From an uncultured Ignavibacteriota bacterium (GTDB taxonomy: Bacteria; Bacteroidota; Ignavibacteria; Palsa-1295), in the NCBI GenBank assembly GCA_903900335.1, contig CAIUMP010000019.1, forward strand, positions 1 through 64,000: DNA of 64,000 nucleotides. The letters are read 5' to 3'. How positions within the stretch are numbered: the stretch's first letter is position 1; every line of letters begins with the position of its first letter. Below are positions 2,821-24,849 of this stretch, piece after piece. Both the position numbers and the translations under genes were made by a program. Under the pieces are notes generated by a model that saw only the letters and a list, made by a program, of their open reading frames with translations, ran no database searches and was not told where the DNA came from.

Positions 2821-3336
2821 GTGAGATCCCTTGCTGTTCTTGTCCTCCTCATGGCATCGTGCAGTAGTGTCTTGCACGCTCAACCGGACAGCGCGCGGCT
2901 TGAACGCACGGCTTATGTGCTGGGCTCGTCGCTTGCGTTTTCGCTCTTCGACTATGTTGGGTATGGTTTGGTACGGAAGAATAACCAGGCACCACTCTCG
3001 TATCGCTTGCTTCAGGTCAGCGTGCAGGCGGCGATCTCCTATTTTCTCTACAAGCAATGTGGGCTTTCTTCGGCGATCACGTTCAACCTTATGTGGTGGA
3101 CATGGTGTGACGACATCTCGTTCTATGGCTGGGGTAACCTATTGAACCCATCCTGGCCTCCATGGGAGAACCGCACCCACAACGGGTTGATGGGGCGGCA
3201 AATTGACTGGGCCTACTGGACCCCGATCGGGTTGACAAGACCATGGAAGAGCCTGATCGCTCGGGATGTCCTTGTTGCGCAAGCTGCGATCGGGTTCTCT
3301 GTCTCGATTGGCTACCTGCTGGGATTTTCAGAATGA
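2821..3336 (+). CDS. Hypothetical membrane protein, first of a tandem paralogous pair
   Basis: 171 residues from a GTG start 5 bases after the previous stop. The N-terminus is a signal-like hydrophobic segment (LAVLVLLMASCSSVLHAQ) with a cysteine that could also be read as a lipobox. The body has two or three hydrophobic stretches and aromatic-rich motifs: SLAFSLFDYVGYG, FNLMWWTWCDD, YGWGNLLNP and WAYWTPIGL. All of these recur in the next gene, with which it shares a 4-base ATGA overlap. I do not recognise the family. Conserved Trp/Asp/Asn positions between the two copies suggest selection for function in or near the membrane. Confidence 0.7.
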   Translation: MRSLAVLVLLMASCSSVLHAQPDSARLERTAYVLGSSLAFSLFDYVGYGLVRKNNQAPLSYRLLQVSVQAAISYFLYKQCGLSSAITFNLMWWTWCDDISFYGWGNLLNPSWPPWENRTHNGLMGRQIDWAYWTPIGLTRPWKSLIARDVLVAQAAIGFSVSIGYLLGFSE

Positions 3337-3929
3337 GGTCCAACTGTATTTTTACACTACTCTTACTCTTGATTGCGTGTTGCATCGCACTACCCTGCGG
3401 CGCTAATGCTACATCTCGGATGACTACTCAAGACTCGATCTCAATCCGAGATACGGCGAGACATTCCTGGTTCTCGTTTGACGGCGTTCGTGGCACAAAG
3501 TTAGAACGAGTGGCATGGGTTACGGGTGCTTCCCTTGCATTTTCACTCTTCGATTACGTGGGATATAACATCGTTCGGGAAAACAACAGGGCACCGGACT
3601 GGTATCGTATTTTGCAAGTGAGCATTCAATGCGGACTCTCATACTTTCTTCTACGAGAGTGCGGACTTCCCTCGGCGATCTCCTTCAATCTTATTTGGTG
3701 GACCTGGGGCGATGACATAGGCTACAATGGCTGGGCGAATCTAATTAATCCGCGAGCGCATGATGGTCATTGGGAAAATAGAGAGCACAATGGGCTTCGC
3801 GATAACGAGATCACCTGGGCCTACTGGACTCCCATTGGTATGCTCCGGCCATACAAAAGCAGGATTCCGCGTGATGTGCTCATTCCGCAGGCGATCATAG
3901 GCTTTTCCGTTGCGGTCGCAATTCTGTGA
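3333..3929 (+). CDS. Hypothetical membrane protein, second of the tandem pair
   Basis: 198 residues from ATG 3333, which overlaps the stop of the preceding paralogue (ATGA). The frame is open further upstream, but this ATG gives a clear signal segment (IFTLLLLLIACCIALPCGANA). The rest parallels the upstream gene: ASLAFSLFDYVGYNIVRENN, then ECGLPSAISFNLIWWTWGDD, then NGWANLINP and WAYWTPIGM. It has an extra 25-residue linker after the signal peptide. The overlap implies coupled translation and co-expression of the two copies. Function unknown; the pair looks like a local gene duplication that has diverged. Confidence 0.7.
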   Translation: MRSNCIFTLLLLLIACCIALPCGANATSRMTTQDSISIRDTARHSWFSFDGVRGTKLERVAWVTGASLAFSLFDYVGYNIVRENNRAPDWYRILQVSIQCGLSYFLLRECGLPSAISFNLIWWTWGDDIGYNGWANLINPRAHDGHWENREHNGLRDNEITWAYWTPIGMLRPYKSRIPRDVLIPQAIIGFSVAVAIL

Positions 3930-4013: not shown

Positions 4014-5000
4014 GTGTCAGCGATCAAACATAAAGCCGAGAAGGCATATCTTAACGAGAAGTTCTTAACGAGCCCCGAGGCCCGTACGGTCCGAATTCTC
4101 ACGGAGTACATCGAGCCTCGTGCGCGTCTGGCGCATGCTCGCGTCAAGGACACCATCGTCTTCTTCGGCTCGGCGCGGATACAATCTCCCGAAGAGGTCG
4201 ATGCTGAGTTGCATCAGCTCGATAACGCCACGATGCTGGCGAAGCAGACGAATTCATTCACTCCTGATGTTCAGCGAGAGCTCGAAGAGGCTATCAGGCA
4301 GGCGACGATGCACAAGGAGCTGTCGCGCTACTATGTCGAGGCCACAGAGCTTGCGCATTTGTTGACGGAGTGGTCCATCACAAAAGCAGCAGAGGGTTAC
4401 GAGAAAGCGCAAGTAGCGAAAGGGCAGATCGCAGCGGCGCAGGTGAGAGAGCAGATTCCCTACGTGAATGTAGAGACGATCAAGACGCATTCTTTCAAGC
4501 AGCGGTATGTCATCTGCTCCGGCGGTGGTCCCGGCATTATGGAGGCTGCAAACAAGGGCGCAATGCTCGGCGGTGGCAAGTCCATAGGCTTTAACATCGC
4601 GCTGCCCTTTGAGCAGATGCCGAACAGTTACATCACTGACGAGCTGAACTTCGAATTCCATTACTTCTTCATGCGCAAATTCTGGTTTGCGTATCTCGGG
4701 AAGGCGCTGGTTATTTTCCCCGGTGGTTTCGGCACAATGGACGAACTCTTCGAATGCCTGACACTCATTCAGACCGGCAAGATCCGCAAGAAGATGCCCA
4801 TCGTCGTCTATGGCAAGAGCTTCTGGGATGACATCATTGACTTCGAGAAGCTTGCGTATTATGGCATGATCTCGCGCTCCGATCTGAACCTCATTCACTT
4901 CTCCGACACACCGCAAGATGCGTTCGATTATGTCAAGTCCGAGCTAACAAGATTGGATGAGGGGGAAGAGACGTTCTTGTATTCGAATCCGGTGGCTTAG
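4014..5000 (+). CDS. LOG-family protein (nucleotide phosphoribohydrolase-like)
   Basis: 328 residues from a GTG start. It carries both signature motifs of the LOG / 'lysine decarboxylase-like' Rossmann family: GGGPGIMEAANKGA near residue 168 and PGGFGTMDELFE near residue 236. Members cleave nucleoside 5'-monophosphates, such as cytokinin ribotides or AMP, into base and ribose phosphate. The protein is longer than the usual 190-200 residues. The extra part is an alpha-helical, charged N-terminal region of about 160 residues, with a segment ITEWSITKAAEGYEK-like in character and FFGSARIQSPEE marking the first beta-strand, as in the larger family members. The true substrate is not predictable. 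It stands alone, with about 85-95 base gaps on both sides. Confidence 0.85.
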   Translation: MSAIKHKAEKAYLNEKFLTSPEARTVRILTEYIEPRARLAHARVKDTIVFFGSARIQSPEEVDAELHQLDNATMLAKQTNSFTPDVQRELEEAIRQATMHKELSRYYVEATELAHLLTEWSITKAAEGYEKAQVAKGQIAAAQVREQIPYVNVETIKTHSFKQRYVICSGGGPGIMEAANKGAMLGGGKSIGFNIALPFEQMPNSYITDELNFEFHYFFMRKFWFAYLGKALVIFPGGFGTMDELFECLTLIQTGKIRKKMPIVVYGKSFWDDIIDFEKLAYYGMISRSDLNLIHFSDTPQDAFDYVKSELTRLDEGEETFLYSNPVA

Positions 5001-5096: not shown

Positions 5097-5528
5097 ATGC
5101 TAAGTCGAAGTATTTTCTTTTGCATTTTCTTGTGTCTCGTCGGTTGCTCCCAGGAGGAGAAGCCTCTTCCCGACGCCCCACCGACGGTCTATCGCCAAAA
5201 CTCCTATGAGTTGAATCTCCTTACGGAGAAGCTTCCCGATGGGCGGCGCGTATTTACGCTGAACAAGACGCTATTCGTTGGTGGGCAGAACTTGCGGCGC
5301 GCGATAATCTCCATTGACACCCTGCCCGCGCTGGGTCAGGAGAACGCGGAGGTGGTCAATGAAAATGACGACGGAAGCTCCTACACGCAATACACTAAAG
5401 CCGACAAGGAGTACGATGTGCTCTTCAAGGTGGACACGTTGAAATATTTTGACCCGAGTGATTATTCCTGGGATACCGCCGCGCATCACACCTCTGAGAG
5501 TCTCAACAAATCCCAGCACGGAAAATGA
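5097..5528 (+). CDS. Hypothetical lipoprotein upstream of the YgiB/YgiC-like pair
   Basis: 143 residues from ATG. The N-terminus MLSRSIFFCIFLCLVGC is a textbook lipoprotein signal with lipobox LVGC, so the mature protein should be lipid-anchored at Cys17. The remainder is hydrophilic, with a proline-rich start (PLPDAPPTV) and an acidic centre; no domain is recognised. Its stop overlaps the start of the next gene by four bases (ATGA), which makes it the first member of a three-gene unit ending with the glutathionylspermidine-synthase-like gene. Confidence 0.65.
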   Translation: MLSRSIFFCIFLCLVGCSQEEKPLPDAPPTVYRQNSYELNLLTEKLPDGRRVFTLNKTLFVGGQNLRRAIISIDTLPALGQENAEVVNENDDGSSYTQYTKADKEYDVLFKVDTLKYFDPSDYSWDTAAHHTSESLNKSQHGK

Positions 5529-6025
5529 AGCGCAAAGAACCACATCATTTAGCCAATTCTGAGACTGGCGCCTCCCGGAAGACCTCGCGCAAACTGAAGA
5601 GCGCAGTCGTACAGCTTGGCCTGCTTACGTCCATCGCGATGACCTATGTTGCGTGCAAGGAGACTCCGCCGCCCGCGAATCCTTACAGTGAGTACAATTA
5701 CTATGGCCACGCCAGCGACCCAGGGATGGTCTATTCCCACTATCACCAGGGTGCCTTCAACTGGTTTTTGCTGAGCCGGATGTTCAATGGCTATGGGTAT
5801 TACCCTCCAACCTACAGACCTCATTATGGCAGCGGAATGGATCTCGATTCTTCCGGCGGGTTTGGTCGCCGCCATTTCTATCCAGGCATGGGCTACCACG
5901 GAGGAGGATATTATCCCGGTTACTACAGTATGAGCAATCCGTCCTCGTCTGGTTATGTGTCATCGGCGCATGTAGCGCGCGGCGGTTTCGGAAGCTCGGG
6001 TTACGGACACGGAGCCTCTGCTTAA
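5525..6025 (+). CDS. YgiB/DUF1190-like Gly/Tyr-rich protein
   Basis: 166 residues. A basic N-terminus (KTSRKLKSAVVQ) is followed by a short hydrophobic segment ending in Cys (GLLTSIAMTYVAC), which resembles the way E. coli YgiB begins. The middle and end are rich in Gly, Tyr, Ser and His, and the tail VARGGFGSSG resembles the conserved VTRGGFG tail of YgiB (recalled from family knowledge, not searched). The position directly before a YgiC-like ATP-grasp gene supports the assignment, since ygiB and ygiC are adjacent in enterobacteria. Role unknown, probably envelope-associated. It overlaps the upstream lipoprotein gene by 4 bases and lies 21 bases before the next gene. Confidence 0.6.
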   Translation: MKRKEPHHLANSETGASRKTSRKLKSAVVQLGLLTSIAMTYVACKETPPPANPYSEYNYYGHASDPGMVYSHYHQGAFNWFLLSRMFNGYGYYPPTYRPHYGSGMDLDSSGGFGRRHFYPGMGYHGGGYYPGYYSMSNPSSSGYVSSAHVARGGFGSSGYGHGASA

Positions 6026-6046
6026 CGGAATTCATCTGAAGAATTA

Positions 6047-7201
6047 GTGAAAAGGATCACAACAAGCCCGCGCACTGGGTGGCAAAAGAAGGTGGAAGAA
6101 CTTGGCTTCTTCTATCACAGCACGGAGGCAATGTACTGGGACGAAAGCGCCTACTACAGCTTCACCATGCAGGAGGTGCTCATGCTTGAACGCGCCACAG
6201 GCGAACTTCATGAGATGTGCCTCAAGGCCGCGCAACATGTCATTGACAATAACCTTTTTAGCAAACTTGCGATCGATCCGCGCTTCGTGCCGCTGATCAC
6301 TCAATCGTGGAATGACGAAGAGCCAGCGATCTACGGTCGCTTCGACCTGATGTACGATGGTGTGCATCCACCGAAGATGTTGGAATACAACGCGGATACT
6401 CCGACCAGTTTGTTAGAGGCATCCGTCATTCAGTGGTATTGGCTACAGGATATTGACAGCACGAAGGATCAATTCAATTCCATTCACGAGAAGCTCATTG
6501 CCTACTGGCAGTTTCTCCGTCCATACCTCAATGCCAGCCAGCCTCTGTACGTGACCGGTGTTGGTGGCCACATGGAGGATTACATCACTATGCAGTACAT
6601 GCGCGATGTTGCTGAGCAGGCAGGATACAAGACATTTTTTCTGGACATTGCTGATCTTGGCTGGGATGATGAGCGACGCTGCTGGGTTGATCTGGAGAAT
6701 AACCCGATCGGTAATCTCTTCAAGCTCTATCCGTGGGAGTGGCTGGCGAAGGAGGAGTTTGGCGGACATCTGCTGGAGGAGTCAATGAAGACGTATTGGA
6801 TCGAGCCCGCATTCAAGATGCTTCTAAGCAATAAAGGTCTTCTGCCGATTTTGTGGGAGCTGTATCCCAACCATCCGTATCTGTTACCTGCTTATTTTTC
6901 GGATGACCCACGTGCGGCAGAGATAAAGGCGAATGTGGCGATCAAGCCTTTGCTTTCCCGCGAAGGGGCCAACATTCAGCTCTTCCAATACGGCAATATG
7001 ATCGCGGAGGTTGGTGGCGATTATGGTGAGGAGGGCTATGTGCATCAGGGATTGGCTCTGATGCCCGATTTTGACTCGAACCACCCCGTGATTGGTTCGT
7101 GGGTGATCGGACAAGAGCCAGCGGGCATGGGGATCCGGGAGAGCACGGATTTGATCACATCGAACACCAGCCGCTTCGTGCCGCACCTGATAGATGGCTG
7201 A
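6047..7201 (+). CDS. Glutathionylspermidine synthase-like ATP-grasp protein (YgiC type)
   Basis: 384 residues from GTG 6047, the expected length for the YgiC/YjfC subgroup, which lacks the amidase half of E. coli GspSA. Family-type segments include IYGRFDLMYDG, then PKMLEYNADTPTSLLEAS in the first third, ILWELYPNHPYLLPAYF, and KPLLSREGANIQLF, which belongs to the ATP-grasp region. The end VIGQEPAGMGIRES is also typical. The family ligates a peptide or thiol to a polyamine-like amine using ATP, but the physiological reaction of YgiC proteins is not established. It is the last gene of the lipoprotein/YgiB-like/YgiC-like unit. Confidence 0.85.
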   Translation: MKRITTSPRTGWQKKVEELGFFYHSTEAMYWDESAYYSFTMQEVLMLERATGELHEMCLKAAQHVIDNNLFSKLAIDPRFVPLITQSWNDEEPAIYGRFDLMYDGVHPPKMLEYNADTPTSLLEASVIQWYWLQDIDSTKDQFNSIHEKLIAYWQFLRPYLNASQPLYVTGVGGHMEDYITMQYMRDVAEQAGYKTFFLDIADLGWDDERRCWVDLENNPIGNLFKLYPWEWLAKEEFGGHLLEESMKTYWIEPAFKMLLSNKGLLPILWELYPNHPYLLPAYFSDDPRAAEIKANVAIKPLLSREGANIQLFQYGNMIAEVGGDYGEEGYVHQGLALMPDFDSNHPVIGSWVIGQEPAGMGIRESTDLITSNTSRFVPHLIDG

Positions 7202-23490: not shown

Positions 23491-24849
23491 ATGAGAGATG
23501 TACTAGATCAGCATTGCTTTCGATATTCTGCGGACGCGGAGCCACAGTTGATGTGCGAAGAGGTAGCACTCTCAACGCTTGCGAAGGAATTCGGCACGCC
23601 GCTGTATGTGTATTCCAAACGGCAGATGATCGAGAACTTCCGCTCGTTCGATTCAACATTGAAGGCTTCGGGCAAAGAACATTATGTTAGTTACGCGGTA
23701 AAAGCGAACTCCAACATTGAACTTCTGCGTGTACTTGCAGAAGAAGGCTCTGGTGCAGATGTTGTCAGCGCTGGCGAGTTGCTTGTAGCTCTTGCTGCCG
23801 GATTTCCGCCAGAGAAGATCACGTTCGATGGCACTGGCAAAACCGATCCTGAGATAGAACTCGCCCTGAAGGCCGCTATCCACGCATTCAATGTGGAGTC
23901 ACTCGAAGAGCTTGAAGTGATCAACAACATTGCAGAGCGGCTTGGATTGCGAGCAAAGGTATCGATTCGTGTCAATCCCGATGTCGATGCGAAGAGCCAC
24001 CCGTACATTTCCACGGGTCTCAAAGAGAACAAGTTCGGGATCGACATGCACGATGCCCGAGAGGCCTTCGTCTACGCTTCCCAGCATCCAGCACTGGAAG
24101 TGGTTGGCATTCATGTTCACATTGGCTCCCAGATCACCTCGCTTGATCCATTTATCAAGGCCGCTCGTTCGACGGTGAAGTTTGTGAACTCCCTCCGCGT
24201 AAAGACTGGCATCGTGCTCGAGCATTTGAACTTTGGTGGAGGACAGGGTATACACTACCGCAATGTTGTCCAACACCCAATGCTACCACCTGATGAGTAT
24301 GGTGACGAGGGTGAGTACGTCCCCTCGCTCAGCGAGTTTGTCGGGGCAGTGCTTCCAATACTCGATCAAACCGGACTAAAGATTATCTTCGAACCAGGCC
24401 GCGCGATTGTTGCAAATGCGTGCGCGCTGCTAGCAAGTGTACTCTACACGAAGTCGAATAGCCTGAAGAATTTTGTCATTACCGACACGGGCATGACCGA
24501 ACTCATTCGCCCATGTTTGTACGAGGCGTATCATCAGGTTGCACCGCTGACCTTGAGGGCGGGTGACTTGATGAGGAAGGTTGATATTGTGGGCCCCATC
24601 TGCGAGACCAGCGACTTCCTCGCTCAAGAACGCGAGATGCCCGCGCTCAAACGTGGAGATCAGATGGCCGTTCTTTGCGCAGGGGCCTATGGATACACAC
24701 TTGCGTCGAATTATAATTTGCGTCCTCGTGCCGCCGAGGTACTTGTAGATGGAGACCGTTATTGGATCATTCGGCAGCGCGAAATAATAGAGGACGTTGC
24801 CGGATTGGTAGACGCTGATCGGCTTAGACTGAAATCGTTAGTGGGTTAG
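23491..24849 (+). CDS. lysA: Diaminopimelate decarboxylase
   Basis: 452 residues from ATG with no Shine-Dalgarno sequence. SYAVKANSN carries the PLP-binding lysine, HVHIGSQI and the Gly-rich FGGGQGIHY bind the phosphate, EPGRAIVANA is the second signature, and GPICETSDFLA holds the active-site Cys from the dimer partner. The enzyme decarboxylates meso-diaminopimelate to L-lysine, the last step of the pathway. The neighbouring asd gene encodes an early step of the same pathway, so the pair forms a lysine/aspartate-family locus. An insertion of about 15 residues after HPMLPPDEYGDEG is somewhat longer than usual. Confidence 0.96.
   Translation: MRDVLDQHCFRYSADAEPQLMCEEVALSTLAKEFGTPLYVYSKRQMIENFRSFDSTLKASGKEHYVSYAVKANSNIELLRVLAEEGSGADVVSAGELLVALAAGFPPEKITFDGTGKTDPEIELALKAAIHAFNVESLEELEVINNIAERLGLRAKVSIRVNPDVDAKSHPYISTGLKENKFGIDMHDAREAFVYASQHPALEVVGIHVHIGSQITSLDPFIKAARSTVKFVNSLRVKTGIVLEHLNFGGGQGIHYRNVVQHPMLPPDEYGDEGEYVPSLSEFVGAVLPILDQTGLKIIFEPGRAIVANACALLASVLYTKSNSLKNFVITDTGMTELIRPCLYEAYHQVAPLTLRAGDLMRKVDIVGPICETSDFLAQEREMPALKRGDQMAVLCAGAYGYTLASNYNLRPRAAEVLVDGDRYWIIRQREIIEDVAGLVDADRLRLKSLVG

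Follow-up and report, generated by a model that had tools for sequence, protein, structure and literature searches.

YgiC-type ligases may modify the C-terminus of an envelope protein encoded beside them, as our analysis of a three-gene unit in an uncultured Ignavibacteriota bacterium suggests. The unit lies in a stretch of 64,000 nucleotides (contig CAIUMP010000019.1, positions 1 to 64,000), called the window below. It encodes a lipoprotein, a YgiB-like protein of 166 amino acids (aa), called the partner, and an ATP-grasp ligase of the YgiC type. We found that this is a genuine and conserved unit, namely a YgiB-YgiC pair in a variant form, to which a lipoprotein is added and whose partner had gone unrecognised. 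We consider it somewhat more probable than its opposite that the ligase joins an amine, likely a polyamine, to the C-terminal carboxylate of the partner before export, and that the RGGFG motif near the partner's C-terminus is the recognition site.

The RGGFG motif marks the C-terminal tail of most partners encoded beside the nearest relatives of the window ligase. We scanned genome contigs with the window ligase and took the best 80 of at least 593 confirmed stretches, which represent its nearest relatives; the record titles name Bacteroidota, Acidobacteria, Planctomycetes, Verrucomicrobia, Proteobacteria, Armatimonadetes and others. Locus L050 was left out, as its record starts inside the ligase, leaving 79 assessable loci. 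The partner open reading frames (ORFs) were chosen by a loose motif required in the last 60 residues, and hence its presence in 75 of the 76 partners is true by construction. Independent of this criterion are the counts of exact RGGFG, the search with a tail-less profile, the search of 395 genomes, and the phage and plasmid records, which were fetched afterwards. Sixty-two of the 76 partners (62 of the 79 loci) carry the exact motif within their last 60 residues, versus none of 3,296 non-partner ORFs, which are mechanical ORFs from both strands. In 2,000 shuffles the mean was 0.14 and the maximum 3 exact motifs per 76 sequences. When the partners are clustered at 50% identity, 28 of the 36 representatives have it, and residues R152, G153, G154, F155 and G156 are invariant in the 15 aligned sequences of the window partner and its relatives. 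The tail following the motif has 7-19 residues in 74 of the 76 partners, most commonly 10. The terminal residue is Ser or Gly in 68 of the 76, versus 15.6% of 583 other predicted ORFs of at least 150 aa; it is Ala in the window. We found no mention of an RGGFG tail in a YgiB-YgiC setting in the accessible parts of the literature, searched mainly by gene and enzyme names and covering few subscription journals.

The pair is widespread across many phyla. The sequence-only reading had placed a YgiB-like/YgiC-like pair far outside the enterobacteria, which our data support, but the pair is not special to this genome: it recurs in many phyla and in phage and plasmid records, and a partner ORF ends no more than 700 nucleotides (nt) upstream of the ligase in 76 of the 79 loci, within 52 nt in 67 of these 76. 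The neighbourhood is thus conserved across the loci sampled. Our second sample consists of 395 genomes of the window's phylum, 32 of which have PF03738 and 18 a full-length ligase, the window genome included. Profile searches of these genomes scored at most 12 candidates per genome for the lipoprotein and at most 11 for the partner; both profiles include the window's own protein, so the matches in its own genome arise by construction. The partner profile (A4), built from the window protein and 14 relatives, has 7 matches, all 7 beside a full-length ligase, and zero matches in the 377 genomes without such a ligase. It missed the other 11 genomes with a full-length ligase, some of which have a partner visible by eye, and its reach is therefore short. 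A small terminal residue at a near-fixed distance from the otherwise unexplained motif, on a protein that adjoins the ligase and was not found without it in the genomes searched, fits a substrate that is activated at its C-terminus.

The 166-aa protein is, as judged from profile comparisons, a distant relative of YgiB and not a DUF1190 member by model. It has a basic N-terminal region, then a hydrophobic stretch ending in YVAC, a Gly/Tyr-rich middle and the tail VARGGFGSSGYGHGASA. A profile search against DUF1190 (PF06693), which the sequence-only reading had put forward as a check, gave no match for this protein and none anywhere in its genome at E up to 10, nor did the protein match any other Pfam or NCBIfam model; direct membership was set aside. 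We call the protein YgiB-like because of its position beside the ligase, its RGGFG tail motif and an intermediate profile link, in which A4 matches the partner of locus L062 at 5.9e-6 and the latter matches DUF1190 at 4.5e-34. E. coli YgiB itself reaches merely 0.15 against the A4 profile. The tails of E. coli YgiB and YjfM read TVTRGGFGES and TVSRGGYGRS near the end. The partner alignment has 81 sequences (L037 was omitted from 82), 16 of which match DUF1190 at E up to 0.01 and 65 do not. Searched against 3,363 ORFs from loci outside A4, the profile has 47 matches at E up to 0.1, all of them among the 67 partner genes present. After the C-terminal part had been stripped from both the profile and the targets, E up to 1 gave 37 matching ORFs, every one a partner, and partners make up 45 of the 55 matches at E up to 10. 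Whole-length homology to E. coli YgiB/YjfM by profile-profile comparison was rejected, as only 14 columns, around RGGFG, could be aligned.

The N-terminus of the partners seems more conserved than an ordinary signal peptide needs. A lipobox-like N-terminus is recognised in 54 of the 76 partners by a simple pattern, e.g. LASC in L088 and LGSC in L086, while YVAC in the window is a poor one. We also observed the pattern [KR][KR][ST] within the first 40 residues of 63 of the 76 partners, e.g. in L042, often followed by an LVL-type hydrophobic stretch; it is present in some partners without the lipobox cysteine as well (L051, L061). The conservation of the N-terminal part and the tail-less profile matches could mean that RGGFG and the N-terminal K-[KR]-S serve a lipoprotein family as signals for export or membrane assembly, and that the ligase is linked to this family for expression only. 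We regard this as very improbable, since the partner profile has no match among the 395 genomes where a full-length ligase is missing, and most phage records examined below retain both genes.

The third gene encodes a complete ligase of the YgiC family. It matches PF03738 over positions 1-371 of 371 (E 1.4e-147, 492.2 bits, cut-off 29.3), and its closest solved structures are those of E. coli YgiC (7uk8, E 1.9e-99) and YjfC (7uk6, E 5.4e-88), to which it is 44% and 40% identical, respectively; glutathionylspermidine synthetase/amidase (GspSA) is far weaker at 1.1e-27. Among 54 aligned ligases, both E. coli enzymes included, 46 columns are invariant, e.g. R98, D100, E113, N115, K300 and R364, and they fall in segments that can be aligned with GspSA; single residues among them presumably have catalytic roles. 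RefSeq names both YgiC and YjfC of E. coli peptide--spermidine ligase, a naming that reportedly goes back to Pederick et al. 2023, a paper titled for these ligases and cited in PMC12568646. We set aside the possibility that the window ligase is itself a GspSA: it scores 129.8 bits against PRK10507, whose cut-off is 882 bits, and has 384 aa without an amidase domain. More distant PF03738 proteins in the phylum (L121, L124-L126, L128-L130) lie directly 3' of membrane proteins of 282-338 aa. Those of L125, L129 and L130 were scanned and are double DUF350 proteins, and no RGGFG partner was seen at these loci, which are possibly a different ligase system.

We propose that the unit is an enzyme-substrate pair with an accessory lipoprotein. 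ATP-grasp ligases activate a carboxylate as an acyl-phosphate, and GspS activates the glycine carboxylate of glutathione. With ATP, the YgiC-type ligase would convert the C-terminal carboxylate of its YgiB-like partner into an acyl-phosphate, which would then be joined to a primary amine, most likely that of a polyamine. RGGFG, about 10 residues from the end, may be the recognition site that seats the small C-terminal residue in the active site. The sequence-only reading had suggested an envelope-located ligation system; the ligation itself would instead be expected in the cytoplasm, because ATP is cytoplasmic. Sec export would follow, and the N-terminal hydrophobic/lipobox segment would anchor the exported protein, with its cationic polyamine end, in the envelope. 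The joining of the C-terminal GG of SUMO to spermidine, as described in the accessible text of PMC12270671, is a precedent for this chemistry.

Several observations weigh against this proposal. The window's genome has no match to S-adenosylmethionine (AdoMet) decarboxylase, a partial match to Spermine_synth just above the cut-off (4.1e-6, positions 55-149 of 186) and matches to nspC only far below the cut-off. In an AlphaFold2 model of a read-through fusion of partner and ligase the tail was not docked, and residues 1-169, including the motif, have a predicted local distance difference test score (pLDDT) below 50, while most of the ligase exceeds 90. Three of the 79 ligases have no partner just upstream (L008, L027, L036), and five of the 76 partners end in Glu. 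In the second sample, only 4 of the 17 full-length ligase loci other than the window's own have exact RGGFG, one of them (L103) being close to L010 in the first sample, with 87% identity across 4.1 kb. Having viewed the 17, we chose a relaxed pattern, which covers 11 of them. This pattern is found in 68 of the 76 first-sample partners, in none of the 12 distant PF03738 loci fetched (out of 14), in none of 219 reverse frames and in 1 of the 3,296 non-partner ORFs. Variants such as RGLLG, AGFG, RVFG and RSGFF occur in other second-sample loci; in L111 a partner-like tail lies some 1 kb upstream, and none was seen in L112. Besides L103, L102 shares 0.9 kb at 75% with L011, and the remaining 15 of the 17 have no nucleotide match to the first sample. 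Since this second, more divergent sample carries variants, strict RGGFG is, on the sequences compared, a trait of the nearer clade that loosens with distance.

The amine joined is probably a polyamine, which for this organism we infer. The genome encodes a biosynthetic arginine decarboxylase (E 3.7e-215), and the searches with AdoMet_dc, Spermine_synth and nspC revealed no clear source of spermidine; the amine could therefore be agmatine, putrescine or an imported one. A pyridoxal phosphate-dependent decarboxylase in the window (23491-24849, Orn_Arg_deC_N 2.2e-61) was set aside as a polyamine enzyme, as it has 83 bits against the speA model with a cut-off of 624; we take it to be a probable diaminopimelate decarboxylase. 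The presence of arginine decarboxylase without a clear spermidine pathway would also suit a ligase that joins the C-terminus of the partner to another amine, such as phosphatidylethanolamine, an amino acid, agmatine or a cell-wall amine, and thereby makes an anchor rather than a polyamine tag. This appears quite unlikely to us, given that genes for polyamine synthesis adjoin the pair at some other loci and that the E. coli enzymes are named spermidine ligases. Near the pair elsewhere, an AdoMet decarboxylase-spermidine synthase fusion forms a cluster of 4 loci and DUF4178 one of 6 loci; these and the other clusters of neighbouring genes are named from one scanned representative each.

Phages and plasmids carry the pair as well. 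We found a YgiC relative in 137 of 50,697 records of a phage collection, some of which are bacterial contigs by name, and in 161 plasmid records, and examined eight of the former and one of the latter. Seven of the eight phage-collection records keep both partner and ligase. Exact RGGFG tails are present in Ochrobactrum phage OC, Achromobacter phage Motura, Acinetobacter phage AC4, Aeromonas phage LAh_9 and L146, the last with a phage label but bacterial neighbour genes. The tail reads KGGFG in Sinorhizobium phage Phosso, SGGFG in Aeromonas phage Aes012 and RGGLG in the plasmid, which is from the actinobacterium Tsukamurella; L148 has no clear tail motif. One or two genes separate partner and ligase in OC, AC4 and Aes012. 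All seven phage-collection partners scanned match both DUF1190 and phrog_3739, a family of unknown function, at E up to 0.01, and five of the seven are above the DUF1190 cut-off. Upstream of the YgiB-like and YgiC-like genes of Aes012 we noticed a Band-7/SPFH protein (L144, 131-1054), and directly upstream of the LAh_9 partner gene one annotated as a K+ transporter (L147, 1576-1950).

Motura encodes a homospermidine synthase, an RGGFG partner and the ligase in a row, with DUF350 two genes beyond, all in one cluster (L141, 1303-4896). The accessible text of a PNAS 2023 paper (PMC9992855) presents its hss-gss cluster as one for potential glutathionylhomospermidine formation; the small gene between hss and gss is the YgiB-like partner. 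That interpretation is in line with another explanation of the whole family, in which the ligase makes a small soluble peptide-polyamine conjugate, the YgiB-like protein is an exported receptor, chaperone or metal-binding partner, and RGGFG binds the ligase or its product and is not a substrate tail. The parent family does make glutathionylspermidine (Gsp), as reflected in PF03738 and the partial PRK10507 match, and DUF1190 is termed a metal-chelating lipoprotein by Ravi et al. 2024 (PMC11237479, in its accessible part). We nevertheless find this explanation rather unlikely: YgiC is reported to be without Gsp activity in the accessible text of PMC12506659, and a receptor would need no motif at a near-fixed distance from a Ser or Gly C-terminus.

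In one branch of loci, the lead lipoprotein belongs to the unit as a dedicated third component. It forms an 18-member cluster with 17 others that precede partner genes; the loci concerned are of the Bacteroidota type, with one Ignavibacteriales locus and two relatives besides. Of 41 relatives, the same 4 have both the lipoprotein and the ligase, and the six other sampled genomes of the genus have neither, a patchy distribution that suggests loss or transfer; all three genes are in the same order in three relatives. A lipoprotein profile (A7, 14 cluster members and L086) has 6 strong matches in the 395 genomes, all adjoining a ligase (Fisher p 3.7e-9, uncorrected for kinship), and three weak matches (1.7e-4 to 3.3e-4) in genomes without PF03738. 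The predicted structure is mostly beta (mean pLDDT 70.8, predicted template modelling score 0.39), and a fold search with it found no PDB match at E up to 0.001. Outside this branch, DUF350 is often encoded nearby in loci from other phyla: one cluster has 21 members, among them E. coli yjfL and a single odd reading frame, and another has 5. Within the flanks fetched, the lipoprotein cluster and the DUF350 clusters have no locus in common, and the window's genome has no DUF350 match at E up to 0.001. The lipoprotein may be a dedicated envelope partner in the position that the DUF350 membrane proteins hold in other phyla.

The sequence-only reading had left open whether the YgiB-like protein or the lipoprotein is the substrate, and our data make the former likelier. 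The lipoprotein adjoins the ligase wherever a strong match was found, and 7 of 14 aligned lipoproteins end in TVK, as might be expected if it were the ligation substrate. We think this extremely unlikely. For most phyla with the ligase, no such lipoprotein was seen at the loci, and the window lipoprotein extends about 30 residues beyond the end of its relatives; its restriction to one branch and this C-terminal extension make it the poorer candidate.

The three ORFs were confirmed from the sequence at the coordinates first claimed for them (Table 1), with the lipoprotein gene in the lead as had been noted. Its lipobox agrees with that assignment, and the overlap of its TGA with the ATG of the YgiB-like gene makes the suggested coupled translation plausible. 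The GTG start of the ligase is 21 nt downstream of the stop of the YgiB-like gene. A scan for promoters and terminators gave no signal above shuffles.

Table 1. Features of the three-gene unit and of the partner's tail, in window coordinates.
Feature	Coordinates	Strand	Remarks
Lipoprotein gene	5097..5528	+	143 aa, lipobox LVGC; without Pfam/NCBIfam family
ATGA stop/start overlap of lipoprotein gene and YgiB-like gene	5525..5528	+	Read from the sequence
YgiB-like partner gene	5525..6025	+	166 aa; N-terminal region basic, followed by a hydrophobic segment; middle variable and rich in Gly/Tyr; tail conserved
RGGFG codons (residues 152-156)	5978..5992	+	10 residues short of the C-terminus; from partner alignments
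Codons for the C-terminal tail SSGYGHGASA	5993..6022	+	C-terminal carboxylate is the putative ligation site
YgiC-type ATP-grasp acid--amine (peptide--spermidine type) ligase gene	6047..7201	+	384 aa, GTG start; PF03738

Other genes lie upstream of the unit in the window. A TIGR00730-type (lysine decarboxylase-like) protein that has a long extension at its N-terminus is encoded at 4014-5000, 96 bases upstream of the lipoprotein gene; we excluded it from the unit because the flanks fetched for the three relatives contain nothing that matches it. The adjacent ORFs 2821-3336 and 3243-3929 encode similar proteins that have SLAFSLFDYVGY and a WWTW.DDI stretch in common, apparently a tandem duplication, with no Pfam family above the cut-off. 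The long protein encoded at 956-2815 has many units of the WQ.CLGGS...DGG type and, by eye, a C-terminal domain resembling those for secretion sorting; it has no Pfam match at E up to 0.001.

The unit resembles several known systems in part. E. coli ygiB-ygiC and yjfM-yjfC have the same ligase family with the partner immediately upstream, and YgiB and YjfM, whose N-termini are lipobox-like, have a TRGGFG or SRGGYG tail comparable to that of the window partner. The window partner differs in being shorter, Gly/Tyr-rich and unmatched by the DUF1190 model, and the gene before it encodes a lipoprotein, whereas that gene in E. coli is tolC (for ygiB) or DUF350 (for yjfM). Operons with a DUF1190 lipoprotein, an ATP-grasp peptide ligase, DUF350, PspA and polyamine genes are described in Ravi et al. 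2024, in the accessible part of which no tail motif is mentioned and another operon has a lipoprotein with a Ctha_1186 domain. The DUF1190 lipoprotein and ATP-grasp ligase of these operons are like the window pair, while their DUF350 has no counterpart in the window's genome; PspA and DUF2170 were not among the seven window ORFs scanned, no genome-wide search for them being made. GspSA and trypanothione synthetase share the ATP-grasp synthetase domain and aligned conserved segments with the window ligase, which differs from GspSA in lacking the amidase domain, in its score far under the PRK10507 cut-off and in having as its partner a protein whose tail is conserved. In eukaryotes, SUMO-spermidine conjugation (PMC12270671, as far as accessible) is like the proposed tag in placing a polyamine on a small C-terminal residue in an ATP-driven reaction. 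It uses E1/E2 enzymes and unrelated proteins, whereas the window unit has an ATP-grasp ligase and a putative conjugation.

We speculate, with somewhat less than even confidence, that bacteria and some phages share a tagging system in which a YgiC-type ligase, guided by RGGFG, caps the C-terminus of a dedicated envelope protein with a polyamine. It would be a bacterial counterpart of SUMO-spermidine conjugation, in which a new lipoprotein family replaces DUF350 in one branch and phages use the pair to alter the envelope of the host, once together with a homospermidine synthase and DUF350 of their own. Most of the tagged substrates would be unannotated because mainly both ends of the protein are conserved.

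The main outcome of the comparison is a proposal for the natural substrate of the YgiC/YjfC ligase family based on the RGGFG tail. The conserved tail on the neighbouring protein makes this substrate directly testable in E. coli. If the proposal is true, it would define a widespread modification of bacterial envelope proteins. A large number of small, unannotated proteins from many phyla and from phages would then gain a role, and some polyamine clusters of phages and bacteria would no longer be read as makers of glutathione conjugates.

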